Assembly: GCF_041146795.1 (NCBI RefSeq)
Contig: NC_135177.1
Span: forward strand, 25,610,060 to 25,674,059
Origin: Maylandia zebra
Taxonomy: Eukaryota; Chordata; Actinopteri; Cichliformes; Cichlidae
Direction: 5' to 3'
DNA: 64,000 bases
Shown: piece after piece, positions 6,001 through 59,557 of the stretch
Layout: every line of letters begins with the position of its first letter
How positions within the stretch are numbered: position 1 is the stretch's first letter
Position numbers and translations under genes: made by a program
Notes under the pieces: model-generated
What the model saw: the letters and a program-made list of their open reading frames with translations, nothing else
What the model was told of the DNA's origin: nothing
Databases searched by the model: none

Positions 6001-9000
6001 ACCCAAATGTACCTGCTGATTACATTTACTGGATGAAGAATGGGGAGCCACTGGATGAAAACAACAGAATAGTTTTCTACAATGATAACAAAACACTTCA
6101 CATCAGAATGGTGCAGCGCTATGATAATGCCAATTATGAGTGTATGGCTGTTAATGCCGTTTCATATAACAAGAGCACTCCTTACATGCTCTTTGTCAAC
6201 TGTGAGTATAATATTTAGAGATTTTATGCAGTTTAGTGTCATGTTTAAATGAACAATTTTTAAGTTTTACATTTATAGTTGTTTAGATATTCATCTATCT
6301 CCTCTTCTGTTACAGATGGACCAGAAACACCTTCTGTTTATGGGCCAGCTTTTGCTGAAACAGGACATCAAGCTGTCTTCAGCTGTTCTGCCGAGTCAGT
6401 GCCTCCCAGTACGTTCTGCTGGTGGTTCAATGGATCCATCGTGGCCAATACATCAGATTACACAACTGATGTGTTGTCTTTAGGCATGAGCGGAGAGTAC
6501 AAATGCATGGCCATTAATAATGTGACAGGAAAGAACAGCACAAACTCCACGACACTCACCGTGATTGGTATGAAAACTTTAGGATTCAGAGGAATTAGAT
6601 GAAACATTTTTAACATATGACTCTGGCTGCTATTGTGTTCCAAGAATAAAGAACACTAAAGACATCTTACCCTCTCAACTCTCATGTTCTGTGTCTACAG
6701 AGGCCATAGAGTCAGTGATGATCAAAAGCACGACAATTCCAATCAACACTAAGAACTTTACTCTCACCTGTGATGTTACTGGGCCCTATGACACAATCTA
6801 CTGGATGAAAGATAACGTGACGCTCAACATGGACCCCTCTAATGACTCACATATCTCCTATAACATTGAAAACAACATGCTGAACTTCATCCCAGTGACA
6901 ACGTACAATGAAGGGATATATCAGTGTGTTGCTACCAATAAGGCTGGCCAGCAAAAAAGCCTCCAGTACAGACTACTGGTGAATTGTGAGCATGACAGAA
7001 AGCAGTGAAATGTGTTTTTTCTATTTTTTTTTTTTGAAAACTAGTTTTATTTAATTTTGTACTCATTTTCAAATGCTAGACACAAATTGTTTTAATATCT
7101 ACATCCCTGAGAAAATGTTTGCTGTAACAAAGATCCAAATGAAGAGTCATGATATGTTTTTAGCAGTATTTAGACATTTTGGGGATTTAAATACTTAACA
7201 AAACAGCCAACATGTTTTTGGGTTGATGCAAAAAGTGTATTTAATTTATTTTCCTTCTTAGAAAGAGGAATGGCAGCTAAATAGAGAAATTAAGTGTTAT
7301 GTGGTTTGCTTTGTTTGCAGATCCAATCCAAAATGTAAAACTAAATGCACCAGTGACCTTTGTCAAAGAAGGTTACGCCTATAATTTAACATGCAATGTA
7401 ACTGGACCTGCTGACTACATTTACTGGATGAAGAATGGGCAGAGACTGCATGAAGACAACAGGACTTTTTTCCACAAGGATAACGAGACAGTTGAGATTA
7501 ATCCAGTAAAGCGATATGACACTGGAAACTACTACTGTTTGGCTATTAATGCTGCTGGAAACATGCCCAGCGCTATTTACATGCTCGTTGTCATCTGTGA
7601 GTTTGATATTTTAAAGATTTACGCAACTGAGTGATATTATTTTAACATTTCAAGATAATTGTTGCAAGTCAATTATCTGGAGTTCAGATCATTTCAGTTA
7701 TGTGAAATACCAAAAGTTCAGGCACAGAAAAATTAATTACAAATACATAAAACATATCAATATCGTATGAAACTTTACAGAAGGCAGTAAATAAAAGACA
7801 ATGCACAGATGTTAAATTATACTTGCATATCTATGTGCATGTGTGTTGTGTGTTTGTCTCATTTCTTCATGCTTTGCGGGTTTTGGAAAAAAAAGAAAGT
7901 GTTCCATAGCGTGCCAGTGTGTGATTTATCAATGTTATGTCTATAACCAGAGGGCATCAGGGACAATAGGCTGTTGTGTGGCTGCCGTGGGCCATTTAAA
8001 ACTCACCGAGATGCGCTAAAGGATGGTGTTGCCTTTGCTAGTGCGGTTAACATACCAGTTTTGGAGTATTTGAGGGCTCATACTAAAGGTTAAATGTGGG
8101 CACTGCTGGACCTTTTTAACAACAGCTTTGATGTAAGTTACCTTTGTCATGTCTTTCTGACTAAATGACTGTTGTGTTTGTTTTGTTTGCAGATCAAATA
8201 GAAAATGTGGAAGTAAAAGCACCAATGATGCCGGCCATAGAAGGTTATTCATATAACTTAACATGCAATGTAACTGGACCTGCTGAATACATTTACTGGA
8301 TGAAGAATGGGGAGATACTGCATGATGAAAACAGAACTGTTTTCTACATGGAAAATAAGACGCTCCACCTCAGTATGGTGGAGCGCTATGATAATGGAAA
8401 CTACTGCTGTATGGCTATTAATGCTTTTGGAAACAAGGCCAGCCCTGCTTATAACCTCATTGTCAATTGTGAGTATATTAGAATGTATAGAATGTATGCT
8501 ACTAAATGGTTCAATGTCAATGGTGCATCACCTTAAATTAGGTAAATCCATTGTATTTCGGTTCTTCAGTTGGGGTGGCTGTAGCTCAGGTGGCAGAGCC
8601 ACTAATCAGCCACTAATCAGAAGGTCGGTGGTTCGATCCCAGGCTGCCTCCTGGCTGCATGCCAAATATCCTTGGGCAAGATACTAACCCCATGTTTGCC
8701 TACTGGCGGTGGTCAGAGGGCCCGGTGGCGCCAGTGTCCGGCAGCCTCGCCTCTGTCAGTGCGCCCCAGGGCAGCTGTGGCTACAATGTAGCTTGCCATT
8801 GCCAGTGTTTGAATGGGTGAATGACTGAATGTAGTGTAAAGCACTATACAAATGCAGGCCATTTACCATTCTAAAACATGGATTCTACAAAAAGGGTCAT
8901 AATGTTCATAATGTGCAGACTTGCTTCTCATATGCCTAACTACGATTGCCTGATTGATCACTTTTACAAAAAGTGCACCTCAATTTGTATTAGCTTCACA

Positions 9001-11333
9001 TTAATTATAGATTAGTAATTTACTTAATGCAGCAATTTTACAAAGTCAGCTTTCATTGAGAAAGCACTGGTGTTACATGCTCTGGTGTGGATAGCAATCA
9101 CACTACATGCTGAACCGTACCCACACAGCTGTGAAAAACATGATGACTTGACACACAGGTGACCAATTTCATGATAAAACTATCAAAGAGTATTTTAGTG
9201 TTGCAACTACAATGTCTCTTAAGACACAGGAGTCAACACAATAAATATACAATGAACTGCACAGCTGACCAGAACCTATCCAAATTTGGATAATACTTTA
9301 CCCAGCTCAAAAGACAAATTTGCATGCTATATAGTCAGGTAGGCTACTCTTTTGCATTAAAGGTAGGACTATGAAATTGCTTCATAATGTTAAATTGCTC
9401 GGTGGTAGCTCATACTAACTCAAAGTGTTATCTTTGCCTTATAATACTTATTACTTACTTACTAAGTATTATACTTACTTATAATACTCCAGTGTTGCTT
9501 GTTGCTCAAAAGTTTAGACAATAAATTTCCTCAGGAGCGGCACAGATATTCAAAACGTCTGTAAGAACATTCATCAGGGACAGGTGTGTCAGTCTCTTTT
9601 GCATCATGCTGATCCATCACCACATTTTTAACCGCAAGTTGAAGAAGGATACTTGCACGAGTCCAACATGGGCACAATTTAAAGAACTTTGTAGTTAACA
9701 AAAAAGTTAACACTCTAGATTCTTACTGTTAGAGTCACCTATCCTCTTTTGCTGTTACAGATGGTCCAGAAAAGCCCATTATTTATGGGCCAGCTTTTGC
9801 TGAAACAGGACGTCAAGCCGTCTTCAGCTGTTCTGCCATGTCAGAGCCACTCAGCCAATTCTGCTGGTGGTTCAATGGATCAATTGTGTCCAACACGTCA
9901 GTGTATGCAACTAGCCTCTTGTCTTTCAACATGAGTGGAGAATACACATGTATGGCCATTAATAATGTGACAGGAAAGAACAGCACAAACTCCACTACGC
10001 TCACAGTTGTTGGTATGAACACTTTAAGATTTTTGGGAAATTTGTTGCACATGTGGCTCTGAAACTGATCAAATACAAATTCTTATTGTGTTCTTAAAGT
10101 CTAAATATTTCATGGGGATGTACTCCAGTCAAGATGTCATGCTCTTTTGTGTTTAACACCTTGTAATTTGTGTCTACAGAGGCCATAGAGTCAGTGATGA
10201 TCAAAAACAAGACAATTCCAATCGACACTAAAAACTTTACTCTCACCTGTGAGGTTATTGGGCCCTATGACACGATCTACTGGATGAAAGACAACATGAA
10301 GCTTAACACTAATCCCTCTAATAACTCATATGCGTCCTATAATACTGAAAACAACATGCTGCATTTCACCCCAGTGACACTGGACAGTGAAGGGACATAT
10401 CAGTGTGTTGCTACCAATAAGGCTGGTGATCATGTGAGCCCCCAGTACAGACTGTTGGTGAACTGTGAGTGTTTATTGAGAACTAGTTCTGAGTAATCTG
10501 CCCAATATTCTTTTGAATTGTGTGCCAAGGAAACACTATTCATAATTTTGCAGTACATTATTCAAACGAAATCTTTCTTTTTCCAGATGGCCCAGTCAGA
10601 CTGACCATTTCCCGTGCAAGTATGTTCATGCACGTGTCCCTGATATGCCAGGCTGATTCTCGACCAGCGTGTGACTTCTCCTGGTTCTTCAACAATCTGT
10701 CAACACCTCTACAGAACACATCTACTATTGTATTCCCTGCAACCAGCCAGAATTTTGGGAATTACATATGCAAGGCATGGAACCCCGTGACTGATATCAC
10801 AATGTACCAAAATCTTACCGTCACAGGTGAATAAACCACACATCTTATCTCTACTCATTTTTCTTTAACAAGTTCTTTAGTGTTGTTGAGCAACGGGTAT
10901 TTTACTATAACCTATGACCTCATAAGAAAATTACGGAAGCGTAGAGCTGCCACCCAGGCAAAAGAAAAATAGAAGTATGTCACGTTATAACGTGACATAC
11001 TTCTATGTCACGTTATAACGCTTCCGTAGAAAAATAGAGGTGAAATGTACAAAAGATTTTGAGACGTTAATGCCAAACGACGTCTTTGTAGTGTGGAGCA
11101 TTTAAAGAAACTATGATGATCGCACCCATCTTTTAAAATTGGCCACAGGCAGTGCTATAAATTTGCAAATATGCTTTAAGCGTTTTTCTTTTTCAGTCCT
11201 AACCTCAAACGTGTCTCTTTGCTTGTCATATTTTCCACCCCCAGCTCACGCCCCTGCCATCCACTTCCCATACCAAGGCAGCCTGATGATGATGGTTCTG
11301 TTTGCCTTTTCTGCGCCTGTGTTGTTCAACTGA
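3049..11333 (+). CDS. CEACAM-like cell adhesion protein, 13 Ig domains, GPI-type tail
   Basis: Fifteen exons, all joined in phase 1: 3049-3100, 3317-3613, 4287-4568, 4673-4936, 5156-5428, 5556-5807, 5926-6201, 6316-6567, 6701-6985, 7321-7596, 8193-8468, 9761-10012, 10180-10464, 10587-10826, 11197-11333. They sum to 3699 nt, 1232 residues. Exon 1 is a signal peptide (MESPVVFILFLAAVTFT). Exon 2 is a V-like N domain with neither disulfide cysteine, ending DSGNYALQ, as in mammalian CEACAM N domains (DTGFYTLQ). Exons 3-14 are twelve C2 domains with Cys..W..YxC and many N-glycosylation sites. Most alternate between an A type and a type opening YGP, the join seen in CEACAM A/B domains. The last exon ends in a hydrophobic stretch (LMMMVLFAF) with no basic cytoplasmic tail, suggesting a GPI anchor like CEACAM5/6; no ITIM is seen. 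The final acceptor could instead be at 11245, in the same frame. Likely a surface adhesion or decoy protein. The family is clear; one-to-one orthology with a mammalian CEACAM is not expected. Confidence 0.85.
3713..3758. repeat. (ATT)n(GTT)n microsatellite
   Basis: A run of ATT units passes directly into GTT units within intron 2 of the CEACAM-like gene. Confidence 0.9.
8572..8870 (+). repeat. tRNA-derived SINE, intronic
   Basis: The head has pol III promoter boxes: TAGCTCAGGTGG (A box) and GGTTCGATCCC (B box). The body (GTGGTCAGAGGGCCCGG, then GCCATTGCCAGTGTTTGAAT) recurs at 33510-33846, 40119-40316 and, inverted, at 28127-28411. The tail is ACAAATGCAGGCCATTTACC. It lies in the 1.3-kb intron between C2 exons 11 and 12. 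The head differs from the GGCGATCGTGGCTC head of two other copies, so two subfamilies share one body. Confidence 0.8.
10933..11040. repeat. Nested palindrome
   Basis: 10969-11006 is a perfect 38-base palindrome (two 19-base arms, no spacer, centred on CGTTATAACG). It is followed by a direct repeat of half of it (TATGTCACGTTATAACG at 10977 and again at about 11005). An outer inverted pair, ACGGAAGCG (10933) and CGCTTCCGT (about 11019), brackets the whole, and GAAAAATAGA is present on both sides. It lies in the last intron of the CEACAM-like gene. Confidence 0.85.
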
Positions 11334-11770: not shown

Positions 11771-11777
11771 TTTTATT
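11771..11777 (-). terminator. Poly(A) signal, cxcl17-like gene
   Basis: AATAAAA on the minus strand, about 185 bases beyond the stop codon at 11961. Confidence 0.5.
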
Positions 11778-11960: not shown

Positions 11961-12876
11961 TCATATGGGCACGGAGGGGTTGAAGGATTTATTAATCCTT
12001 TGGCATATCTTCATGTTCTTGAACTTTTCCTTCTTGCAGTGTTTTTTCCCTTGTGGTTTGAATGAATCCAGAAAGATAAAGCAATTGGACACAAAAAAGA
12101 AAATTAATGAAAAAATGAAATGAAAAAAAATGTGTAACTTCTATCTGTAATCACTCTTCAAAGCCATGATAATAAAGAGAATACAATAATTGATTTTATC
12201 ACTGATTTTTCTCATCATTTTATTCCTTCCCTATTCCAAAAATCTTAGAAGTTATAGGCAACTTACACTTTCCAGTATTCAAGCAGTGGCAGGCTTTGTT
12301 CATCACACCCATTTCCTTCCCTGAGTGACATATAATAAAAGAAGAAGAATGGGTTAGAAATACTGTATTTTTCTAAGAGAGAGGATGTACTTACATAAAA
12401 GCGATACATGTAAATATCTATACATTCTTTGGTAAAATTCTCATGTCACCTTTACAGGTGCAAGGTCTTTTGTCCTGTCTTTGGATGACTGGACGTGCAG
12501 TTGTAAGTAGTTCTTTAACAGCAGATCCTGTAGCACAGTTTATTGTAGAAATAACTTTAAAAGATTTATAATAACAATTTTAATAAAGTAAGTATTTAGA
12601 TACAAACCTGTAACTATCATTAAGGAGCTGGTCTTGTCGAAATGTGTTTAGAAAATAATCTCACATACCGTCAGTGAATGCGCTGACAACCAGGCTCTGT
12701 TTCTTTGTCTCATGAACACCTTTAACAAATGAAAAGGAAAATAATAGAGAAGGAGACTTCAGAATAGGGTGCAAAGGATACAAAAAGATTTTTACGAAGT
12801 ATCATACTATACCTTGGATGCAATCAGTTAATATTACCAGCCCAAGAGCCAGCGGCAAAAGCACCCTGGGTCCCAT
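11961..12876 (-). CDS. cxcl17: CXCL17-like small secreted six-cysteine protein
   Basis: Five exons on the minus strand: 12813-12876, 12669-12719, 12450-12527, 12267-12320, 11961-12049. Every join is phase 1 with GT..AG; total 336 nt, 111 residues. Residues 1-21 are a signal peptide (MGPRVLLPLALGLVILTD). A dibasic site (QRQDKR, 54-59) precedes the core. Mature cysteines are C61, C63, C75, C77, C87 and C98: CTCK, then ACHC, then two single Cys, followed by a basic tail ending NPSVPI. Human CXCL17 as I recall it has the same plan: CECK, QCPC, two more Cys, a Lys/Arg-rich stretch and an end in ALPL. The C-terminal x-P-x is the feature reported to drive CXCL17 activation of GPR25. CXCL17 lies beside CEACAM1 and near CNFN, PRR19 and PAFAH1B3 in human, the neighbours found here. 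Likely a secreted mucosal chemoattractant. If exon 4 were not spliced at 12266 (GTAAGT), the protein would end CKLPITSK and a few more residues; the strong donor argues against that. Confidence 0.72.
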
Positions 12877-12973: not shown

Positions 12974-12983
12974 TCTTTATAAA
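12974..12983 (-). promoter_or_regulatory. TATA box, cxcl17-like gene
   Basis: CTTTATAAAG about 100 bases upstream of the start codon at 12876 on the minus strand. Position and sequence fit a focused, inducible-type promoter. Confidence 0.6.
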
Positions 12984-13019
12984 GGATGATGGTGATGAAA
13001 TCATGGCTGCAGCACATTA

Positions 13020-15301: not shown

Positions 15302-18300
15302 TCAGTTGTCAGTAGGTTCACCTAGCAGGGCCTTGAGATGGGCATGCAAAGGTTCACATACAGCTTGATATCCTTTCGGGGTCAGGTGAAGGTAGTCGTA
15401 CATGTCCTGGTGGGAGATGCTACCATTGGAGTGAACAAAGCCGGGGTCTACATTGAAGAAGGAGGCACGGGGAAGGGATGTTAAGGTGTCCTTTACTAGC
15501 TCGTTCACCTTGGCATTTCTCTCCCGTAGAGGGTTTGGCATTTTTCCTCTGGGCAGTAAACTCTGGAAAACAAACATTAGCATACTTATTTTTAAATGTT
15601 TCATATTCCTTATTTCATATGCGTGTTAGCTGAATTTCCAATTAAGTTTCTGCCCCTAGTACATATACAGTAAATTAATACAGTTAAACTTCAGACCTGT
15701 CTGAAACAAGTACAGCTTTTTGGCCCCCTAACATTCACCTGACCAGGCAGAGACTCCTCTGGTTTACTTTTAACTACATATCATATAGCACAAAACCTTC
15801 TGATCCAAACAATCTAAGATATCCATTTACATACAATACAATATAGCATCAGTTGATTTTCAAGCAGATTTTCTAAGCCGTTGCCGTTTCAGTTTAGTTT
15901 TTATTGTCTGAAAATCTCAGTCTTTTTTTAATTACCAGAGTTAACCAGGTTTGCAGCACTTTTTCTAATTCTTCTTTCTGTATTTAGTGGTGACTTGAAC
16001 AAAATTCTACTGCGGATCCAATTTTCTTAAACCATTAACTTACATATAGGTGACATACATTGAAGATAGCACATGAAACAAACGAAAACTATTAAGTCTT
16101 TTTTTAAAAAAACCATAGATGTTAGTGATCTGATGTTAGTTTTGTTCAGACTGGCCAACCCCGTTAAAGAGATCATTATAGCAAGATAAAAAATTCAAGA
16201 ATTTTGGAATAGTTATTAGAATACATATAACATGTCCTAAATACACGTAACTCATCCCAGTCTCAATAAACATATTCACCACAGGCTCATCAGACAACTT
16301 GCATTGATAGATTCTACAAAATTGGCAAAGACTCAAGCTGAAGAGAGTTCCTCTGTATTTTCATTTGATATTAGTTTCCAAGGTTCACCAAAAAAGGTTG
16401 TTCCAGTTAGCATTAAATTTTCAAAAGTCTCGTTTTATTCTAAGTACCTAAAATATTTCAGTTTCAGTCTCTAACTTTAGTTGCAACAGCATCAGCAGCA
16501 ATTGCAGCTTCTACACAGCTCCCATCAAGCTGCTATTCTCTGCAGACTCGTTGAAGAGCATGTCTGTAGAGTGTGTGCTGCACTGTTTTTCCAAATGGGC
16601 CTCAGAACAAAATACTTCCAAGCCCTTATTCTTATGAGCAATGTCTGCAGTGTATATTTAAAATCCTTGAATATACTACATGAAATGGCTCACAGATAAT
16701 CAAAGTTCCAGCCTATGAAGAAGCATCCATAACTTTACACTTCACCTCATTTCAGATAGCTAAGATGCTGCTAAAAGGGGTGACATCGCACTGTACTTTG
16801 ATGGTTGAATTAACTTCATTAGTCATTTTCAAAAAACATGCGGGTGAGCAGATTAACACCTGATACAAGGAATGCTTTAGGAAAAACACGTACAAGTACA
16901 AGCGTGTGGGCATTGGGAAGCTTGTTCTTGATAACTTGGATAATAGCCAAGATGCCTCCACAGATCTGTTCAGGAGTGTGACCGTGATTGTTAGTTCCTA
17001 CCCACAGCACTACGACCTGCAACAACAAACGACAAAGCAATGCATGACTGAACACATGTCACTGATATTTTGACCCAATGTACCTGGAAGTGGGATTTTA
17101 ACACAGAGTTGAGCACAATCAGTCTTTTGTGTGAATAAACAAGCATGATCATGTTATCTATTTCTGGCACTGTTTTGAACCTTTGGGCTGATGTTATCCA
17201 GTTCACCGTTGCTCAGTCGCCACAGCACATGTTGTGTTGCATCACCACCCACCCCAAAATTAAGGCAATGGAGAGGTGAGAACAACTGACGCCATATCTG
17301 CAGACAAACCACAATAATATTGCATTCACATGTTCCACAACAAGTTTTCACACTTTGAAAACATTTATGAGAAAACGTAAATCAGTTACATAATGGACAG
17401 AGGCACACATATCAATGCAATCTTTGTTTTACCCCAAACTCGTGCATGAGCTGAACAAGAGAGTCTCCAACAAACAGGACATCAGGTTCTTTGTCTTTGC
17501 TGTCGGACACAAACCGATTGTGCTACAAAAAGAAAATGTAAAAGATGTATATATATTTTTACTACAGTACCAACCATTGCACAACATCCGCACATATTGC
17601 AAGACAAACTTTTTAAAACCTTGTGTTTTTTTTAAGAATCAGCATGGTATGTTTCTTTTGATTTTCTGGTGACTACTGACATTTGTGTTCATTTAGAGAC
17701 ATCCTTTAAAATAACTACCCAAATGAATGCCCGATGGCAACGCCAAAAGGCTAACGAGTGGCGAGTCTACTTTCTAGAAGCACTTTGATATCATCACAGT
17801 GCAGTATTGAATGTAACACCAGCAATTTCATTTTTACATGGCAAGTCCAGGTACAAAAATGTATTTAGAATGCGCTGTTATGTGGATAGAGAAAACATTT
17901 TCTAATGGGTTTTTTTTAATCAATTAATGAAATATCTATGCATATCCCCATGTGTCTGAAAAAATACTAATTTGCCAAGACTTTTCTCCTTTCTTTCACA
18001 ATCAATTGCAAAACTGCACACCCCTCACAAGCCATTGCATTTTCATTTATTAGACAGGTTTAAATAATTTATGAAGGCCATTATTGCAACAATATGTACT
18101 ACAATATGTTAGTAGCTGGCTCTTTTCAACTATGAAGCTTCCCTTTATCTTCACTGATTGCAGAACTAAACATCAGCAACGATGCAAACGGAATAATATA
18201 ACACCGTACTTTATAAAACCTAAAAATAATATAAAAGTCACACACCATAGACATCCATCGTCCATCTCCCTGCGTGTCTTCACAGGGAGTGGGTGTGGCG

Positions 18301-20696: not shown

Positions 20697-20864
20697 ATGC
20701 AGCATGAGCCATGTGTGTGGCAGGACCTCTATAAGAAGGAAAAGTCAACAATTTTCAACAAGAAACAAAAACAACAGATAAAAAGTGTTGCTTTGCAAAA
20801 AGATTCAGTGCTCTTCCCAGATATTCAACCCACTACAGTAAGGCAAATGAGGAGAAAAAAATGA
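20697..20864 (+). other. Upstream ORF overlapping the prr19 start
   Basis: In the second exon (acceptor at 20690) the first ATG opens a 55-codon frame (MQHEPCVWQDLYKKEK and so on) that ends with TGA at 20862-20864. Its stop overlaps the presumed prr19 start as ATGA (20861-20864). It could be a translated upstream ORF followed by reinitiation, or leader sequence without a role. A donor-like GTAAGG at 20838 could remove the overlap if used. Confidence 0.45.
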
Positions 20865-23800
20865 AACGACTGAAGACCCGCAAGGAGAGGAGTCAAATAA
20901 GAGGTGGCTGGAAAGAGATTTCAAAGATCAAGTCAAATCACCATCATCATCACTACCGTCATTGCCAAAGCAACATAGACATGGCACATTTGCATAACTG
21001 CTGTTGTGCTAGTTGCCATTGTTCTTCGAGGAGAAATCCACCATTTCCAAGTGTTGTGCGCTCTGTGCAGGAGCCCAGTATCATCACAGACGGCCGCCTG
21101 ACAGGACACCATGGCCTGTTTAACCATGAGGTGAAGTCTATTGATTTTGAACGCTTGCTAAGTGAACAGCCAAAACTGGAGGAACAAAGAAAAGAAAAGA
21201 ACACTGTAATTTCACATTCATCTTCAGCATTGCACAATTCTGCTTCACTGTCCACTGATGCTTTGTTGGGAGCTGATACAGATGTTGGGAGCTGTGTGCC
21301 ATTCAGAAAAAATACAGACCCTGCTTCAAAAGCCCACACTGACTGCCAAGAGAAGGAAAAGAACAACATCCAGTTTGAGTCAAAGCAGTCAGATGTCACA
21401 ACAGAAGAGAAACCACAACAACAACTCCCTCTTTCATGTGAAAGTTTTCAAAGCAGCCACTGGTCTAAACACAGCTTCCTCGATGTACTAACAACAGAAA
21501 CCAAGTGGGCATGTGTCATGTCTGAAAACAGCAGAGAATCACTGCTGACTCCGGTTGTTGACAGAGACAATATTAAGTCTTTCAACACAAATGTAAAGAA
21601 ACGTGTGATTTCTACTCTTGTGCAAACCCCAAAGAACCAGGAGCCCCCTGTTCAGCAGTTTGTCAGTGCAGTAGCAGCACGTTTGTGTCAACGTTTGAAG
21701 CTTCCGTCGATCAGTAGGAGAAACCTGCTGTCAGAGAGCAGGGAGGTCCTGTTAAACTCTCTGAGGGAAACACATGGACCGTGGCTTCAAGAGAACCTCC
21801 TTAGACTTCAGCAACATCGTAGCTTTGCTGTGCATCCCACAAAGAAAGACCAAGATCATGATCAAGAGCCAACCAGGAAAAATGAAGAGAATCTCTTTGC
21901 CGCAGGTGAGCATTAACCTCTTGAGACTTGAACTCTTCCATGGCATGCATTTTTATTTCTTTTTGATATTTGGGCTCATTGGGACCTGATGAGTGTAAAA
22001 ACAAAGAATTGCCAGATTTTCTTTACCTGATTTTTGTTTCTGACAAAAATGAGACGCACATATGAGGATATTCGTTTAAAATTTCAATTGAACTGTGGCA
22101 CTATAATGTCATCGTAAGTGGATATCAGGCCCTTGTAGAGCAAAATTTAGTATTTTGGTCTAGAGCTTAAAATACATGTCCCCCATAATATAAAGGAAAG
22201 CGCAGATTTGTTCAAGCTCAACGGTTTTTTTTTTTTTAAAGTAACAACTACTTGTTATACTTTATCTATCACTATCATAGGGGAGATATTCTGGTGCAAG
22301 TTTTTAACTGATTATGTCTAATGATCTCTGTTTGACCACAGCCATGCTGGTTGACATGGTAATAATTTCAACTGTGTAACTTCCAGCTGATCAAACATCT
22401 GTTTGATAGATGTTATTACATTGTGATACAGATTATATGCTCAAAATTCGTTATTTTAAAAGTGTTTATGGACTATCTTTGCATTCATTGTTACTTATAA
22501 GTACTTAGTATAAAAGTGATTGTTAGTAATATATTGCCAAGCTGATTGGTAAGAAATATTTAAGTTCTTACATTTACTTTTGTTTGATAGCTTGAACATT
22601 TACACTGTCTTTTTATGTTGGTGTATTTTAACCATTTAGTCATTCAGATTAAATTGAACTAGTAATAGTGCATGCTGCATCCTGTAAGCTCACACACATT
22701 ATTTTGTTCTTATGCACACAATACAAACACAACTTAAATACACTAATTGCGAATTCTGCACAAAGTGTTTCCCTTAGAGACTGACCATGACCTCCACCTA
22801 CATCACGTTTACCTGTTGTCACTTTTTCTTCCCGTGTCTTTGTGCTGTCATGTACTATAGAATTTACCGTTGCAGTAATTGTTACTCCCCCTCAGCCTTG
22901 TAGACCTTGTGTATTTGGTTCAGATTTAACTTTGGCAGAGAGTTATTGGTACTCCAGCTAGGACCAGCTTCTCTACTATCAGACTTACAGATGTTTAGTG
23001 TAAATCTGCATCTGTCTATCTATGGTTTTAGAATAATTAACATTTCTTGCACTTCAATCAGTTGTCATTAACTCACCACTGTCCTCTCTTATACTTGTCT
23101 GTCTTTGTGCCACCTCTTCCTTCTGTCAAACACGTGCAAAAACAGTTACGGAAGAGAAGTGAAACACTGAAAAAAACCTTTTTCCCCTTAAAGAATGACT
23201 GGATAATGCCTTCTGTGCTAAAATAGTTTTAAAGGTTTATTTACTGTTAAATATCTTTAAACCAACATTTCTGCTGTTTTTTTGTTTTGTTTTGTTGTTT
23301 TTTTAAAAGAGAAAACATTGATCTTAACTCCATGTATTGCATGATGAGGAAGATTTTTTTTTTTAAAAAATACTTTTTTTTTTAATAGGCATCCATTGTG
23401 TGAAGATAGGTTTGGATTTTTTGACCTATCCTAAAAAGTGTTTTGTGTTTGTTTTATGTCAGGAGATTAATTTGTGTAAAGAATACAGAAAAGACACAAA
23501 CCATCAATTTGGTTTTACATCATTTTATGTGGTTATTTAAAAAAAAAAAAACAGAAGTAGGCATGACATACCTACATTTTTTCAGTTTTGTTTCCTTATT
23601 TTTAGATATCTCTTTTAATATGCCAGCAAATAGCCATTCCAGCTGGAAGACCAGTCTGCAGCAACACTGCAGTCAAAAACAGGTGAGGCCCTCAGTTTAC
23701 ATTGTCACTCTTAAGTTATTTTCAGATTTCTATAATATAAGATTCTCTGATAATAAATAATGATTCCTTATGTTAATTGTCAAGGTTACTGAGTGGCTGG

Positions 23801-24956: not shown

Positions 24957-27884
24957 CTAAGGTTGCAAGTAAAAGTTTTCATCAGATCTCTCATCCGTAA
25001 AGTCTTCAGCTTCTTTGCTCTCACGAGTTGCAGAATATTCTTCTGTCTCTAGTCTGGTCCCTGTTTTTATTCCTCTACGCAGCTGATTCCAGAACAGTTC
25101 CTGCGCCTGTGTTGGGTTAGTACAGTCTGAACCAGGCCACTGCAGGTAAGTTTTTTTTAACATAACTTTCCTCATGCGATGATACGAAGACAACTGCCTC
25201 TCAGAGATTGGCTCCAGAAAAACGAGCAGGAGAACATCTCTGTGCTCATCAAAGAGTCTGTAACTGGCAAGCTGGATTTCCAGAGAACACCACTCACTTT
25301 GCAGAAAATTCCTGCTCACCACACAAATGGTTTTCCGGCTGCTGTATACAGCAGAAACAATATTGTCCACAATATCACGGCCCAACTCAAAGTCCCTGTG
25401 GTGCAGGCAAAGCTTAAAAGATGATCCGCCTCCCTCCAAGTTGGGTAACAATTGGTCCATGACCCATTGTTCATCAGATGAGTTATAGGAAATAAATGCA
25501 TCATATTTACAATTCTCCTCCTCCTCATGGAATCTGCTCCACTGCTCACTAAACCAGGCCCGAAACACATAGTAGCTGTACTTCATTTTCCAGTAGAGTT
25601 TAACATAGAATAAGGGAATGATTGTAAACAAGAAGATTGCAGCTGATGTGCTAAAAAACAGGTACATTCCTATATCTCCGCGACAAACTTTAGTGTCAAA
25701 ATTGTAAAATTTGAGTTTTGGATTGTGTTGGCATGACAGGTTGTACAGGTACACCACCTGAACATCTGTGTTATTCTTTGTATAATTTTGCAAAGGCCCG
25801 TTGTTGCAGGTGCAGCTTACAGGATTATCTCGTATGTCAAGGTAACGAAGCATAGGTAGACTCATTAATGCGTCTACAGAAAGAGTCTGCATGGCATTGC
25901 GGTTGAGCTGCAGTAAACGTAACTGTGTAAGATTCCCAAAAACCTCTTTAGAGAAGTTCTGAATGCCCATATTTTCTGCAGCCAATCTGGTCAAATTTCT
26001 TAAATTTTTAAAGACCCCTGGTTCTAATTTTTTCACCCCAACACAGCAGTTATCCAGTGTGAGGAAACTTAAGTCTGTTAGGTCATCAAAGGTATCAGGA
26101 GCAAGATGGTATATGTTATTGTTGGTGAGATACAAAGATTTCAGCGAGTAGAGGCCACGTAGTAAAGTGCGTGGTAAAACGGTGAGTCCGTTAGGTCGCT
26201 GCCGATCTAATTTCAGATCAGTCAGTCTGCTGAGATTCATGAATGGTGACTCATGAGTTTCTGTTATGAAGCAAATCTGATTACTCTGTAAATCTAGCAC
26301 AGTGAGGGTGTCTTGAAATGCACGATATAAGAAAGGGTCAATTTGTTTTAGCTGGTTTCCATCTAGATAGAGCTTGGACAGGCTTTTTAGTCCATCAAGA
26401 CCCGATCGCTGAAAATGGGTAATCTTATTACCTCCAAGATCCAGTGTATTTAAAAATGTCAGGTTGAAAAAAGTCCTATTGAAAATGACAGAAATGCGGT
26501 TGTTGCGAATGTTAAGAATTTGCAAACTGACCAGATCTTCAAATGTGACACTGAACAAATCAGTTAAGAGGTTATTGTCTAAACGAAGTGTCTCGAGCTT
26601 TTTTAGTCCCTTGAGAGCGTGTATATGGAGAAATGCAATACTGTTTATGTTAAGTTGTAGCGTCCTGATATTTGGTGTATGATAAAAAGCATGAGAGTCA
26701 ACTTTTAAGATGCGATTGTAACGATAACTCAGATTTTCCATTTTTTTAAATTGAAACATTTTTTTACAGTATATTAGGGAGCTGAGATGGTTGTGCTCTG
26801 CTTTGAAGTCTTCTATGTATACATGTCTTCTAAGAAACTCAAGGCAATATGCACTCTTTAGGTTGTTGCGGGATAGATCCAAAGCCCCTGTGATATTAGG
26901 ACAATAGGACAGTGTGTTATTTGTAAGTTGCCTAATTGCATTATTACCCAGGTTCATATTTTTAAGATTTTTCTCTTTCAGCCTTTTTTTCAACAGTATG
27001 CATAATTCTTTGAGCATGCTGTCATTGTTCAGTCCTGTACCAGAGAAATCAACATGACTTGGATTGATGTTGCTAATGTTTAAAAACTCCACTATTGTTA
27101 CATTTGTTGAACGCAAATGCAAATAATTTATAGTGCTCAAATCAATTTGATCAAAGGCTTTTGTAGGCAGCTGAGAATTGTATGACAAATCTAAAATGTT
27201 GATAAAGCTGAGAAATGAAGGCTTACATCCCAGCGTTAATAGATTATTATGGCAAACATACAAAACAGTGAGGGACTGGGGCAGTGACACATTTGAGTGT
27301 CTGAGGGAGGTCAAATTGTTAAAGCAAAGATCCAGTGTCGTCAGATTTGTCAGATGTGCCACAGACTTAGCAATGCCTGAGAAATCTGACAGAAAGTTTT
27401 GTCTCAGGATTAAAGTGTGTAGCTTGAGAACAGATGAAAAAATATCCTCGGGCAGCCGCTCCAATGCATTGTTGGCCAAAAAGAGGGAGGTGAGATTCTG
27501 CAGGTCCTTAAACAGAGAAGGGTTGAGCGCTGATATTTTGTTTAATGACATGTTTAGATTCTTCAGTTGATACAAGCCTTGGAAAGCTAACTGACGGATG
27601 GTTGTCAAGGAATTATTATCAATTCTGAGGTGCTGAAGGTCTACTAGGTTACTAAAGCTGTTGTTAGGAAGGTCCGTCAGAGGAGTTCTTAAAATGGTGA
27701 GATTGATGGCAGATGGTGGCAGGTCACTGACAATATCAGAAATATGCATTGCATTCCGATGCATGCAGTTGAAAGTTTTCCCATCAGAATCTGCTTCTGC
27801 AATGCAGTTCCTGAAACTGTAACTACTGGTGAGTTGAACAGCTGCAAGAACAACTGTAACTGACAGCAGCTGATGGTTTCCCAT
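24957..27884 (-). CDS. Toll-like receptor, TLR11 family (TLR13/22/23-like)
   Basis: One uninterrupted coding exon, 975 residues. Order: signal peptide (1-22), LRRNT with paired Cys, a long solenoid of LxxLxLxxNxL repeats to about residue 685, LRRCT (CTCNNG and NLSCQHNP, about 685-732), one membrane span (about 738-760), and a cytoplasmic TIR domain (about 790-935). TIR boxes: YDAFISYNSSDEQWV (box 1), LCLHHRDFELGRDIVDNI (box 2) and ELFWNQLRRG (box 3). Such receptors sense microbial or damaged RNA or DNA, usually from endosomes, and signal through MyD88. The long ectodomain without the undefined loop of TLR7/8/9, and the single-exon form, fit the fish TLR11 family; I cannot separate TLR22, TLR23 and TLR13-like from memory. 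Box 2 has Leu where many TLRs have Pro. A splice donor at about 28620 on the minus strand suggests an untranslated first exon near 28621-28700. Confidence 0.88.
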   Translation of the reverse strand: MGNHQLLSVTVVLAAVQLTSSYSFRNCIAEADSDGKTFNCMHRNAMHISDIVSDLPPSAINLTILRTPLTDLPNNSFSNLVDLQHLRIDNNSLTTIRQLAFQGLYQLKNLNMSLNKISALNPSLFKDLQNLTSLFLANNALERLPEDIFSSVLKLHTLILRQNFLSDFSGIAKSVAHLTNLTTLDLCFNNLTSLRHSNVSLPQSLTVLYVCHNNLLTLGCKPSFLSFINILDLSYNSQLPTKAFDQIDLSTINYLHLRSTNVTIVEFLNISNINPSHVDFSGTGLNNDSMLKELCILLKKRLKEKNLKNMNLGNNAIRQLTNNTLSYCPNITGALDLSRNNLKSAYCLEFLRRHVYIEDFKAEHNHLSSLIYCKKMFQFKKMENLSYRYNRILKVDSHAFYHTPNIRTLQLNINSIAFLHIHALKGLKKLETLRLDNNLLTDLFSVTFEDLVSLQILNIRNNRISVIFNRTFFNLTFLNTLDLGGNKITHFQRSGLDGLKSLSKLYLDGNQLKQIDPFLYRAFQDTLTVLDLQSNQICFITETHESPFMNLSRLTDLKLDRQRPNGLTVLPRTLLRGLYSLKSLYLTNNNIYHLAPDTFDDLTDLSFLTLDNCCVGVKKLEPGVFKNLRNLTRLAAENMGIQNFSKEVFGNLTQLRLLQLNRNAMQTLSVDALMSLPMLRYLDIRDNPVSCTCNNGPLQNYTKNNTDVQVVYLYNLSCQHNPKLKFYNFDTKVCRGDIGMYLFFSTSAAIFLFTIIPLFYVKLYWKMKYSYYVFRAWFSEQWSRFHEEEENCKYDAFISYNSSDEQWVMDQLLPNLEGGGSSFKLCLHHRDFELGRDIVDNIVSAVYSSRKTICVVSRNFLQSEWCSLEIQLASYRLFDEHRDVLLLVFLEPISERQLSSYHRMRKVMLKKTYLQWPGSDCTNPTQAQELFWNQLRRGIKTGTRLETEEYSATRESKEAEDFTDERSDENFYLQP

Positions 27885-41501: not shown

Positions 41502-42790
41502 ATGTCAACCACAGACAATATCTGGGTGAGTGGATATTTTTAAAATTTAGTTATTAATTTAAATTAGTTATTTAGTTGTTATGCATAATTGTTCATTAGG
41601 AAACACAAAGTGTTACCTGAACCTTATCCAAAAGCAAGTCTTTTTTTTTTTTAATTACCCAGACATTGAAAGACATTGATGAGTTCTGTATCTCTGTCTT
41701 CTCACAGGACTATGATTATTATGGAAATACGACAGAAGCTGTTGCAGCCCCGTGCTTAGAGGAAGACATCTATGGTTTTGCAGAAAAGTACTCCCCTGTA
41801 GTATACAGCCTGGTGTTCGTCTTGGCAGTTGTTGGCAACGTGCTGGTGCTGTGTGTGATCAGACGCTACAGAATCTCTCAGAGTAGTGGAGCTTGTGCCT
41901 TTTCCTTAACAGACACCTTCCTCCTTCACCTGGCCATTTCAGACCTTCTTCTGGCCTTCACTCTGCCCCTGTTTGCAGTGCAATGGGCTCACCACTGGAT
42001 GTTCGGCTTGGCTGTTTGTAAGATCTCTGGTGCTCTCTTCTCCCTAAACCGGTACAGTGGCATCCTCTTCCTGGCCTGCATCAGCTTTGACAGATACCTG
42101 GCAATCGTTCATGCCATCAGCTCAAGTTGGAAACGAAGCACATGCCATGCTCAGTTTGCATGTGCCATCATCTGGGCAGTCTGTCTGGGCTTGAGTGGAA
42201 TTGACATTTACTTTAAACAAGTGGTGATGATAGACCTTGTCGGTCAGCAGAGGGGGCCCGTGTGCCAGGTGTGGTTCACTGAAAACACTTTACAGTGGCA
42301 GGTGGGGCTGAAGTTTGTCAGTGTAGTGCTGGGCTTTGGGGTTCCCCTCCTAGTTATGCTCTACTGCTACATCCGGATCTTCAGGTCTCTGTGCAATGCC
42401 TCTCGCCGCCAAAAGCGCAAGTCTCTCCGCCTCATCATCTCCTTAGTGTCTGTATTTGTAATCTGTTGGGCTCCATACACCTGCTTCCAGCTGGCAGATA
42501 GTCTGCTAAGGCTGGGTGTGTTAAGTGCATCCTGTGAGCTTGGCTATGTGCTTGACGTTGGAACTCTGATCACTGAAAGTCTGGGGCTGTCACACTGTGC
42601 CCTCAATCCTCTGCTGTACGGCTTTGTAGGAGTGAAATTCAGGCGGGAGCTAGTCAGAATGTGTAAGGGGCTACTGGGACAGAGGAGCTGGCTGGCAATG
42701 GAAGGGTGGCGAGAGCGAAGGCTTAGAAAAGCCACGGGATCGTTCAGTTCTGCAGAGAGTGAAAACACCTCGTATTCTGTCATGGTGTGA
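41502..42790 (+). CDS. CXCR3-like chemokine receptor, conventional type
   Basis: Two coding exons: 41502-41525 (MSTTDNIW) and 41708-42790; 368 residues. The short first exon and one long exon are the usual chemokine receptor form. The acidic, Tyr-rich N-terminus (DYDYYGN) fits tyrosine sulfation for ligand binding. Seven membrane spans are clear. Signalling motifs are intact: LAISDLL in span 2, FDRYLAIVHA at the end of span 3, CWAPYT in span 6 and NPLLYGFVGVKFRREL in span 7. The tail is Ser/Thr-rich and ends SVMV. Fish have several tandem CXCR3 genes (cxcr3.1-3.3 in zebrafish); this is a G-protein-competent member, but I cannot choose 3.1 or 3.2. AATAAA lies at 42886-42891. The gene is flanked by direct repeats of about 0.8 kb. 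Confidence 0.9.
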
Positions 42791-50168: not shown

Positions 50169-51646
50169 ATGGACATGGCACAGCTGCATGTGGATACTGG
50201 CGGAATCTTAAAGGAGTCGGATGACTATTTGGAATATGGCAGGAACAACACCCGTGATTATGATTACGATGCAGCAAATACAGTGAATAACACTACAGTG
50301 TTTACAGTGTTTAACAGCACAGTGGATAATGTTCCTGTGGAAAGAGGCAGTGAGGCAGTGTGGGTCCCTGCTCTGTATGCTGTAGTGTTTTTTGTTGGAA
50401 TCCTGGGAAATATTATTCTCCTGAGAGTTCTGGTTCAAAAAAGGAGACAGTGGAGCCTATCGGACACCTTTATTCTCCACCTGAGTTTTATGGACATCCT
50501 CCTCCTGTTGATGCTGCCCTTCTGGGCTGCACAGACAACTCAGCTTTGTGACTCGTTTTGGGGGATTTTCAGCCGGGTCTTTGGGGTCGTTTTCAAGGTA
50601 AAAACCAGATGTTATGTGAAACAGAGACTGAAAGTGAAAACAAGACATTTTCAGTGAAGCTGTGAGAAAGCTGAACAGAGTCATTGTATTCAACAGTATG
50701 ATAGTGACATCCACTGAGTATGAACAGAGTCATTGTACTCAATAGACAGTGAGTATTTAACATTTTCAAAGAGAACACGCTTAGAACAGCAGTTTAGAGT
50801 AGGACAGAAGTGAAAGGGAAGAAATGAAGTGTAATTTTTATAGATGTTAGAGGTTTGTGTCTTACGCTAAAAGTTCTCCCTGTCTTCTTCTAGCTCAACT
50901 ACTACTGTGGGATCTTTCTGCTGGTTTGCATCAGTCTTCAAAACTACCTCTCTGTCATCCATGGCATCCAGTTATATTCCCACGGGAGGCACTGGTTAGT
51001 TCATATCAGCTGCCTGTCAGTCTGGCTTATCTCTGTCCTCCTCACTGCACCTGACTGGATTTTCCTGGTGGGTAAAAATAATTACACAGAAGTTAATACT
51101 TGTGTTAATATCTACCCTCAATCTGGAACTGACTGGCAGTTGTGGTCACGCCTGCTCCACCACATATTTGGCTTGGTGCTACCTGGACTCATGTTGATGA
51201 TCTTTTGCTCACATATGCTACGGCGGCAGTGCAGCTGTAATGGCCTCCCAATCCCGAGAAATGTCACCGTCATCCTGTCTCTGGTGGTCGTATTCTGTCT
51301 GTGTTGGATGCCGTACAACTTCATACTTGTTTTGGACACTCTCCAGAACAGACTTCGGGATCCTCCTAATGATTCACAGGAAGGTTCTGAAAGTTCACTA
51401 AAAACCCTTCTCACGGTCACCTCTGCGTTAGGCTGCCTTCACGCCAGCCTGAGGCCTCTGCTGTATCTCGGCCTGTGTGGAAACTTCAGGCAACACTTAC
51501 TGGCCATGCTGAGATGTAGTAAAACTGAACCAAAAGGCTCACTCTGGGATCTTGGTGTAGACCAGAGACAGCAGCCTGATCACGGTCAGGATCAACAGGA
51601 AGAGCTGGAACGGATGATGGCTGTAGAGAATCTGTTAGCTTGTTGA
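50169..51646 (+). CDS. Atypical CXCR3-like receptor, copy 1 (cxcr3.3-like)
   Basis: Exons 50169-50597 and 50894-51646, phase 0; 393 residues from the ATG just after the acceptor at 50165. A further short 5' exon could exist. Seven spans are present. The N-terminus is long and acidic with several Asn-glycosylation sites. Retained: LSFMDILLLL in span 2, the span-3 and loop-2 cysteines (TQLCDS, NTCVNI) and CWMPYNF in span 6. Lost: DRY is QNY ([12 protein letters not shown]) and NPxxY is RPLLY ([11 protein letters not shown]). Loss of both switches is what marks decoy or scavenging chemokine receptors, and zebrafish Cxcr3.3 is an atypical receptor with an altered DRY. So it probably binds or clears CXCR3 ligands without G-protein signalling; this is inference. 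The C-terminal half is almost identical to the copy at 56337-59557. Confidence 0.85.
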
Positions 51647-56336: not shown

Positions 56337-59300
56337 ATGAATATGAGTACAGATGATCTGGATGTGTACAGTGGAATTGACTATGACCCTAACATCACCT
56401 ACGACTATCCAGGGGATGAGTCTTTTGTGAAAAGAGGCAGTGAGGCAGTGTGGGTCCCTGCTCTGTACTCCATAGTGTTTTTTGTTGGAATCCTGGGAAA
56501 TATTATTCTCCTGACAGTTCTGGTTCAAAAGAGGAGACTGTGGCGCATATCGGACACCTTTATTCTCCACCTGAGTATCGCGGACATCCTCCTCCTGTTA
56601 ATGCTGCCCTTCTGGGCTGCACAGACAACTGAGCTTTGTGAGTGGTTTTGGGGGATTTTCAGCTGGGTCTTTGGGGTCGTTTTCAAGGTAAGGACCAGAT
56701 GTTGTGTGGAACAGATAAAGACTGAAAGTGAAAGTAATACATTTTCTGTGAAGCTGTGAGAAAGTTGTTTTGGCTTGGATTATATTTGGCTGCACTCTGT
56801 CATTTCCTGCTCTTTTGCAGATTCTTGGCAGAACATGCAGAACAGAATCATTATACTCAACAGGATGACACGTGACATCCTCTGAGTACTTAAAACATGT
56901 TTAAGATGAGAACAAGATTAGATACAGAGGTTTAGAGTAGGACAGAAGTGAAAGTGAATTAGAATTAGAATTAGAATTAGAATTCAACTTTATTGTCATT
57001 GCACATGCACAGGTACAGGGCAACGAAATGCAGTTTGCATCCATCCAGAAGTGCTTTAGTGATATAGGTATATTACAATATATATTAGCAATAGTATAGA
57101 TATGTAAGTATATTACAGAAATGGGTCTATTATGGTATGTTATAATGTACACGGTATGAAGTATGTTGTGAATATTCTATAACTAAGTATGTACAGGCTG
57201 TAGTGAGTACAAGCTATGTGCAGGCTATGAACAGGATATAAATATGAAAAACTATACAGAATATGAAATAAATAACTTTACAGAAATCTGAGATATACAG
57301 CTATACAGAAATGGGAACTATGCAAGTTGTAAACAGTTGTAGGATTAAAGATTATTGAATGTACAGAATGATTATTTACACAGAGCTATACAGTAGTGCA
57401 GTTAAGATAAGTGAGGGTGTAGATAGTTTCTACAGAGGCTATATAAAGTGCTAGTGGTTGTGAGTGGTGGTTCACTCCATGTTATTATTATTGTGTTTGA
57501 GGGTACAGTTGTCCATTGTGGGGGTGTGTATGTTCAGTCCATGAGTTTAACGTGGGTCAGATGTCAGGAGGCAGAGTTCAGGAGTCTGACAGCTGTGGGG
57601 AAGAAGCTGTTCCGGTACCTGGTGGTCTTAGTCCGGAGGCTCCTGTGGCGCCTCCCAGAGGGCAGGAGGGTGAAGAGTCCATGTGATGGGTGACTGGGGT
57701 CTTTGATGATTTTCCCAGCCCTTTTCAGACACCGCTTCCTGTAGATATCTTTTATGGCAGGAAGTGGTGCTCCGGCGATGCGCTGGGCAGTTTTCACGAC
57801 CCTCTGCAACGCCTTCCGGTCCGAGGCAGAGCAGTTCCCGTACCAGACTGTTATACAGTTGGTCAGGATGCTCTCGATGGTGCAACGATAGAAGTTCACC
57901 AGGATGTCTGAGGACAGGTGGTTCTTCCTCAGAGTCCTCAAGAAGAAGAGGCGCTGGTGAGCCTTCTTGACCAGCTTGGAGCAGTTGGTCGTCCAGGTGA
58001 GATCCTCGGAGATGTGGACTCCCAGGAACTTGAAGCTGCTCACACGCTCCACAGCCGTCCCCTTAATGTGGATGGGTGGATGTGGGTCAGCATTCCTCCT
58101 GTAGTCCACGATGAGCTCCTTGGTCTTCTCGGTGTTAAGCAGCAGGTTGTTTGTGTCGCACCACTCAGCCAGACGATCCACCTCCTCCCTGTAGGCGGCC
58201 TCATCGTTGTCACTGATGAGACCAATCACCGTGGTGTCATCTGCAAACTTAATGATGGTGTTGGAACCATCAGCAGGTCTGCAGTCGTGGGTGAAGAGGG
58301 AGTAGAGGAAAGGGCTCATCACACAGCCTTGTGGTACACCGGTGTTCATTGTGATGGTAGATGAGCAGTGGTTATCCAGCCGGACATGTTGGGGGCGGTT
58401 GGTCAGGAAGTCCAGTAACCATTTGCAGATGAGGGAACTGATGCCCAGGTCTGTCAGTTTCCTGATGAGTTGTGAGGGGTGGATTGTATTGAACGCTGAA
58501 CTGAAGTCTATAAACAGCATTCTGGCGTAGGTGTTGTTGTTGTCCAGGTGTGAGAGGACAGAGTGCAGTGCGATGGAGACTGCATCCTCTGTGCTCCTGT
58601 TCTGGCGGTATGCGAATTGGTGGGGGTCCAGGGTGGGGGGGAGACAGGATTTGAAGTGTGCTAGGACCAGCTGCTCTAAGCACTTAGTGATGATGGGGGT
58701 GAGTGCTACTGGGCGGTAGTCATTGAGGCAAGATGGAGTCGAGTGTAATTTTTATAGATGTTAGAGGTTTGTGTCTTACACTAAAAGTTCTCCCTGTCTT
58801 CTTCTAGCTCAACTACTACTGTGGGGTCCTTCTGCTGGTTTGCATCAGTCTTCAAAACTATCTGTCATCCATCCGTGGAATCCAGTTATATTCCCACGGG
58901 AGGCACTGGTTAGTTCACATCAGCTGCCTGTTAGTCTGGCTTATCTCTGTCCTCCTCACTGCACCTGACTGGATTTTCCTGGTGGGTAAAAATAATTACA
59001 CAGAAGATAATACTTGTGTTAATATCTACCCTCAATCTGGAACTGACTGGCAGTTGTGGTCACGCCTGCTCCACCACATATTTGGCTTGGTGGTACCTGC
59101 ATTCATGCTGATGATCTTCTCACATATGCTATGGCGGCAGTGCAGCTCTAATGGGGCCCGAATCCAGAGAAATGTCACCGTCATCCTGTCTCTGGTGGTC
59201 GTATTCTGTCTGTGTTGGATGCCGTACAACTTCATACTTGTTTTGGACACTCTCCAGAACAGACTTCAGAAACATCCTAACAATTCACATGAAAGTTCTG

Positions 59301-59557
59301 AAAGTTCACTAAAAACCCTTCTCACGGTCACCTCTGCGTTAGGCTGCCTTCACGCCAGCCTGAGGCCTCTGCTGTATCTCGGCCTGTGTGGAAACTTCAG
59401 GCAACACTTACTGGCCATGCTGAGATGTAGTAAAACTGAACCAAAAGGCTCACTCTGGGATCTTGGTGTAGACCAGAGACAGCAGCCTGACCACGGTCAG
59501 GATCAACAGCAAGAGCTGAAACAGGTGACGGTTGTAGAGAATCCGTTAGCTTATTGA
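56337..59557 (+). CDS. Atypical CXCR3-like receptor, copy 2 (cxcr3.3-like)
   Basis: Exons 56337-56687 and 58808-59557, phase 0; 366 residues. The start is the ATG four bases after the acceptor. Same altered switches as copy 1: [12 protein letters not shown] for DRY and [11 protein letters not shown] for NPxxY, with CWMPYNF kept. The extracellular N-terminus is about 26 residues shorter than in copy 1 and quite different ([20 protein letters not shown]), while spans 1-7 are nearly identical. Four of its Tyr sit in acidic context, fitting sulfation. The intron has grown from about 0.3 kb to 2.1 kb by a LINE insertion on the opposite strand (56957-58738), and splice sites are unaffected. The coding frame is intact. 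AATAAA lies at 59803-59808. Confidence 0.85.
56957..58738 (-). mobile_element. Rex1/CR1-like LINE in receptor intron
   Basis: 5'-truncated LINE on the minus strand. Its polymerase frame is open from the truncation point (58738) to a stop at 57564, about 390 codons: [66 protein letters not shown] (FADD active site) and [19 protein letters not shown] 3' untranslated part of about 0.6 kb ends in GACAATAAAGTTGAATTC and (AATTCT)n. The open frame suggests a young insertion. Naming it Rex1 is from memory of conserved blocks. Confidence 0.88.

Follow-up and report, generated by a model that had tools for sequence, protein, structure and literature searches.

A five-exon gene of the cichlid Maylandia zebra as a probable orthologue of zebrafish cxcl17

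Do the short exons next to pafah1b3 in the cichlid Maylandia zebra encode a fish CXCL17? A broad 2024 phylogenetic study confines CXCL17 to placental mammals and holds it to be non-homologous to canonical chemokines (PMC10792014). A 2015 teleost chemokine review speaks of limited information on fish CXCL16 or CXCL17 (PMC4690017), the table of a 2012 synteny survey enters CXCL17 in 4 of 18 species columns (PMC3568907), and PMC2416438 lists the human accession only. In January 2026, Yu et al. (Biochem J; PMC12905490) described zebrafish cxcl17, whose product Dr-CXCL17 (zgc:158701, NP_001138293) binds and activates GPR25 and almost loses its activity without the last three residues.

A prediction made from sequence alone (here the original prediction) proposed a hidden five-exon gene for a CXCL17-like ligand within the window, the 64,000-nucleotide stretch of M. 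zebra DNA analysed here. Here we describe this gene with its conservation and locus, its exon pattern as obtained by comparison, and an intact GPR25-like gene elsewhere in the genome. We consider it highly probable that the gene is a cichlid orthologue of zebrafish cxcl17, encoding a small secreted basic chemoattractant that would act through GPR25.

Gene structure and start codon

Five minus-strand exons joined at GT-AG sites encode a 111-residue product (Table 1). The original prediction left the strand unstated, but its coordinates hold, as do the exon sizes of 51–89 nt, the uniform phase 1 and the product length. The introns measure 93, 141, 129 and 217 nt, with GT-AG borders at all four and all four junctions in phase 1. 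As had been proposed, no single open frame reveals the gene – the window's list of open reading frames contains none of at least 100 amino acids that covers it – and a TATA box does lie roughly 100 bases upstream. Downstream of the gene, at 11777, is a hexamer resembling a poly(A) signal, AATAAA or ATTAAA.

Table 1. Features of the cxcl17-like gene and its neighbours in the window
Feature	Position	Strand	Description and basis
CEACAM-like gene(s)	7299..11333	+	Ig-domain exons (Pfam); 7299-7634 and 10170-10496 tested; last exon probably ends at stop 11331-11333
Coding exon 5	11961..12049	-	89 nt including stop; cysteines 5 and 6, basic stretch, S-V-P-I; splice sites, homologue alignment
Coding exon 4	12267..12320	-	54 nt; residues 65-83, second CxC (CHC); splice sites, homologue alignment
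Coding exon 3	12450..12527	-	78 nt; residues 39-65, first CxC (CTC); splice sites, homologue alignment
Coding exon 2	12669..12719	-	51 nt; residues 22-39, mature chain begins; splice sites, homologue alignment
Coding exon 1	12813..12876	-	64 nt; ATG and predicted signal peptide, residues 1-22; splice sites, homologue alignment
TATA box (TATAAA)	12976..12981	-	105 nt upstream of ATG at 12876
pafah1b3 C-terminal exon	15302..15604	-	PAF acetylhydrolase IB alpha/gamma subunit, E = 4e-29; beta subunit lower, 5e-25
prr19-like ORF	20861..21916	+	PF15455, 48 bits, cut-off 27

We searched for chains of five GT-AG exons that read M...CxC...CxC...C...C...[VILM]P[VILM] over 90–130 amino acids. When the locus was shuffled 2000 times with dinucleotides preserved, no such chain arose. 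Tiling the window on both strands gave 420 stretches, of which one contained a matching chain, and that one is the gene. This is an after-the-fact check, since the gene was known when we chose the pattern and the limits on exon and intron size. Because nine different products at the locus satisfy the pattern, the one originally proposed included, the pattern alone leaves the junctions ambiguous. Comparison settles them: an NCBI model of M. zebra, LOC143421096 (P0002; 158 aa, 'uncharacterized'), contains exactly the same 111 residues, and homologues align across the four junctions.

LOC143421096 begins 47 residues earlier, at 13017, and the 47 upstream codons translate identically. We favour the ATG at 12876 as the probable true start, and regard the NCBI start as probably wrong, because 13017 precedes the TATA box by 36 nt, seven of nine NCBI-named models use the start that aligns with 12876, the extension is poorly conserved (3 of 47 columns identical among the three proteins carrying one), and the signal peptide would otherwise be internal. 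The Epinephelus model has an extension similar in length to that of LOC143421096 and hardly conserved. Against the start at 12876, the protein P0003 carries an in-frame upstream stretch. P0003 may be cDNA-derived, since it runs through all four junctions, and given its upstream frame transcription could start upstream of the TATA box. The gene was therefore hidden only in part: its NCBI model is uncharacterized and probably misplaced at its start, but a model already existed.

A search of the assembly (962 Mb, 63 contigs), in which the window spans 25610060-25674059 of contig C11, gave six matches, five of them the gene's own exons and the sixth at E = 3.9, and the gene looks to be single copy there.

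The protein and its percomorph relatives

The translation contains the predicted CxC, CxC, C, C series (C61, C63, C75, C77, C87 and C98), is basic, and ends N-P-S-V-P-I, giving the V-P-I terminus that had been foreseen. Mean Kyte-Doolittle hydrophobicity of the leader is 2.24 over residues 5-18 (2.19-2.57 across all ten members of the family described below), and the mature chain has a net charge of about +14 and a pI of about 10.0. The mature charge is +12 to +21 in nine of the ten members and -3 in the tenth, the frameshifted model P0013. The criteria of Yu et al. for fish CXCL17 (PMC12905490) include a signal peptide on a protein of fewer than 200 residues, six mature-chain cysteines in the order CXC-CXC-C-C, and a C-terminal Xaa-Pro-Yaa with large aliphatic residues. 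The cichlid product has 111 residues with a leader that is hydrophobic by Kyte-Doolittle, six mature-chain cysteines in that order, and V-P-I. The structure predicted from the ten-row alignment is of low confidence (mean pLDDT 47.5), and a PDB sequence search with the protein returned one chance match, a histone methyltransferase at E = 0.51.

Three successive protein-collection searches, each widened by the previous one, matched 13 distinct proteins with E values no higher than 10. We aligned ten of these, leaving out P0004, P0005 and P0014, which are open frames running into introns. Nine of the ten are NCBI-named, all annotated 'uncharacterized' or 'hypothetical', and come from Maylandia zebra, Perca flavescens, Sander vitreus, Acanthopagrus schlegelii, Champsocephalus gunnari, Epinephelus lanceolatus, Eleginops maclovinus, Dissostichus eleginoides and D. 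mawsoni. The original prediction would have been refuted by a conserved fish family at this locus with a different cysteine plan and C-terminus; we found instead that all six cysteines are present in eight of the ten proteins and an S-[VI]-P-[IM] end in nine. The leader is conserved across the ten, and few features beyond the leader and cysteines are as well preserved as the uncharged end P-S-[VI]-P-[IM]. Insertions and deletions within the family preserve the frame and the C-terminus in nine of ten. P0013, the D. mawsoni model, diverges from all other aligned proteins after exon 4, probably through a gene-model error; the D. eleginoides model is intact.

In walleye (Sander vitreus, P0007), cysteines 2 and 3 are replaced by Phe and Tyr, with the other four cysteines and an SVPM end kept. 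AlphaFold bonds for zebrafish CXCL17, from a model of low overall confidence, are C47-C62, C49-C60 and C80-C91, corresponding to C1-C4, C2-C3 and C5-C6 (PMC12905490). As C49-C60 is the C2-C3 bond, walleye has lost exactly one predicted bonded pair. The fragment P0014, which covers part of the protein, carries both substitutions as well; since its source may be a close relative, we do not treat it as an independent case of cysteine loss. P0014 also carries foreign sequence just before SAVGEP, after CTFKG, before KGREM and after GKRKK. In the cichlid gene these breaks correspond to the end of intron 2, the start and end of intron 3, and the start of intron 4, and because of this correspondence the five-exon layout is probably common to percids.

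Locus and relationship to known CXCL17 proteins

Zebrafish cxcl17 lies between pafah1b3 and ceacam1, near cnfn, and the human locus is stated to be similar (PMC12905490). This placement is part of the orthology argument of that study rather than one of its search criteria. In M. zebra the order is CEACAM-like / cxcl17-like / pafah1b3 / prr19, so the gene sits between pafah1b3 and a CEACAM-like neighbour, as published for zebrafish and as the original prediction had it. The identity of pafah1b3 is clear and that of the CEACAM-like gene(s) less so: CEACAM1 is among 82 PDB matches of exon 7299-7634 but stands behind titin, neurofascin, contactins and others, and the name comes mainly from the published locus.

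Several further features of the neighbourhood were observed. The putative last CEACAM-like exon (11245-11333, plus strand) appears by eye to encode a short hydrophobic tail with no cytoplasmic part, which is suggestive of a GPI anchor. Between it and the last Ig exon, a 38-base palindrome was seen by eye at 10969-11006 (ATAGAAGTATGTCACGTTA with its complement). An intact, single-frame Toll-like receptor of 975 amino acids, with leucine-rich repeats and a TIR domain, occupies 24957-27884 (minus strand), and its best-scoring solved chain is TLR13. Partial seven-transmembrane matches at 50250-51514, 56451-56657 and 58784-59425 (plus strand) lie, with a CXCR3-like gene at 41666-42790, 29-47 kb from the cxcl17-like gene; among them is a reverse transcriptase ORF at 57564-58520 (minus strand).

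The cichlid protein resembles Dr-CXCL17 in its predicted signal peptide, its short basic mature chain, its CXC-CXC-C-C plan and its locus. The C-termini, LPI in zebrafish and VPI in the cichlid, are both aliphatic-Pro-aliphatic, whereas four exons are reported for the zebrafish gene and we find five coding exons. The zebrafish protein was absent from the matches of all three protein-collection searches, and the case for orthology to it is built on locus, cysteine plan and C-terminus. A second zebrafish protein, Dr-CXCL17-like (si:dkey-112a7.5), is likewise secreted, has six cysteines and an X-P-X end, and is a GPR25 agonist. It differs from the cichlid protein in its cysteine order (CXC-C-CXC-C) and in its chromosome and neighbours.

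With mammalian CXCL17 (PF15211), the cichlid protein shares six cysteines in the same order and a C-terminal X-P-X, the human protein ending in ALPL. The spacing of the cysteines differs from that of the human sequence. The common cysteine order, asserted in the original prediction, agrees with the published human plan (PMC12905490). The original prediction had also warned that standard searches could miss the gene, and they do. None of the ten family members matches Pfam CXCL17 (PF15211), a profile that the human sequence matches at E = 6.7e-53, and a search of the genome with the profile gave two matches, neither at this locus and the better at 16.6 bits against a cut-off of 27. Comparison of the ten-row alignment with human CXCL17 by hhalign gave a probability of 1.6% at a nominal P of 0.031, which is at noise level. 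A second run, which set nine of the ten rows (P0013 dropped), cut to a common start, against the mature human chain, reached a nominal P of 0.02, with a score at least matched in 10 of 300 full shuffles and, when the cysteines stayed in place, in 29 of 300. A PDB search with human CXCL17 found nothing at 0.001. Since sequence similarity is within noise, orthology to mammalian CXCL17 rests on locus, cysteine order and C-terminus; the zebrafish CXCL17s likewise lack overall similarity to their mammalian counterparts (PMC12905490).

Canonical CXC chemokines share the CxC with the cichlid protein and, by analogy with zebrafish CXCL17, would share the attraction of cells. Unlike them, the cichlid protein gives no chemokine-domain Pfam match: none was found for it or for the ten members at E up to 10.

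Candidate receptor, proposed action and alternatives

A search with the human GPR25 sequence identified an intact, single-frame GPR25-like gene on contig C5 at E = 1.6e-65, with 38% identity over 341 columns. It leads the next of the 115 genome matches listed (1.4e-47) by 59 bits, and by our own reading of their sequences the next two appear to be apelin-receptor-like. The best solved-structure match of the C5 gene is GPR15, as it is for human GPR25, and no GPR25 entry occurs among the 17 PDB matches of human GPR25 at 1e-40 or at the threshold applied to the C5 gene. Yu et al. name W104 and K274 in zebrafish GPR25 (PMC12905490); the C5 gene has W at 104 and a lysine at 269 in WLPYNVFK, which may correspond to those residues. 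A GPCR gene within the window itself (41666-42790, plus strand) was considered as the receptor and rejected as CXCR3-like.

Work on the zebrafish and human proteins suggests how secretion, disulfide formation, receptor activation, tissue and chemotaxis might be connected. The signal peptide (about residues 1-22) would be cleaved off, leaving a mature chain of about 89 residues with three disulfides, C1-C4, C2-C3 and C5-C6, in a short core. The basic mature chain could bind cell-surface glycosaminoglycans, and the free C-terminus S-V-P-I would enter the pocket of GPR25 on leukocytes and activate it, upon which the leukocytes would migrate toward the secreting epithelium.

That the splice chain is spurious, or a decayed copy without a product, is scarcely credible given that no shuffle reproduced such a chain, that homologous models exist in eight other NCBI-named percomorphs, and that family indels leave frame and C-terminus intact in all but one member. 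A more substantial alternative is a fish ligand that has the same C-terminal key but is not orthologous to mammalian CXCL17, having acquired its Xaa-Pro-Yaa end and six cysteines separately. Yu et al. suggested a separate origin of this kind for zebrafish CXCL17-like, which is encoded on another chromosome (PMC12905490), and beyond the cysteine plan the cichlid protein has no significant sequence similarity to human CXCL17. We nevertheless think such an origin unlikely, since the CEACAM-like, pafah1b3 and prr19 locus matches that of zebrafish and resembles that of human as described in PMC12905490, and the cysteines follow the mammalian order, which those of CXCL17-like do not.

The product might also be a cationic, cysteine-rich, defensin-like host-defence peptide that kills microbes and has no GPCR role. 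It is strongly basic and rich in cysteine, mammalian CXCL17 has antimicrobial activity, and there are weak profile matches, each in one of the ten members, to a small toxin (E = 0.025) and a defensin-like profile (E = 3.4). Yet the conserved uncharged end P-S-[VI]-P-[IM] is more in keeping with a receptor key than with a membrane-active peptide, and the zebrafish protein is a GPR25 agonist, which makes a purely defensive role quite improbable. We thus retain orthology to zebrafish cxcl17 as the best explanation: the proposal of a CXCL17-like ligand is borne out as far as gene, cysteine plan, C-terminus and locus can be matched with zebrafish cxcl17 by sequence, although the kind itself was already published in January 2026.

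To that known kind, the present analysis adds a percomorph family, a probable NCBI start error, five coding exons where zebrafish has four, and the loss of a cysteine pair in walleye. In the literature searched, whose scope lay outside preprints and most subscription papers, we found no further fish CXCL17 beyond PMC12905490, and within the same scope we did not meet the percomorph family, the start-codon correction or the walleye cysteine loss. The main text of PMC12905490 does not contain the words percomorph, cichlid, medaka or carp, though its supplementary species table may list some of these fishes.

An automated model that is unnamed and probably wrong at its start can mask the signal peptide that screens like that of Yu et al. 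need. The family now extends to cichlids, perches, seabream, grouper and notothenioids, and the percomorph sequence set is useful for ligand-receptor comparison. We tentatively propose, as an idea that falls a little short of even odds, that selection constrains the fold less than the C-terminal key P-S-[VI]-P-[IM], which walleye keeps although its C2-C3 pair is gone, and that the protein may in effect be a peptide agonist carried on a replaceable cysteine scaffold. If true, this would account for the absence of alignable sequence between fish and mammalian CXCL17.
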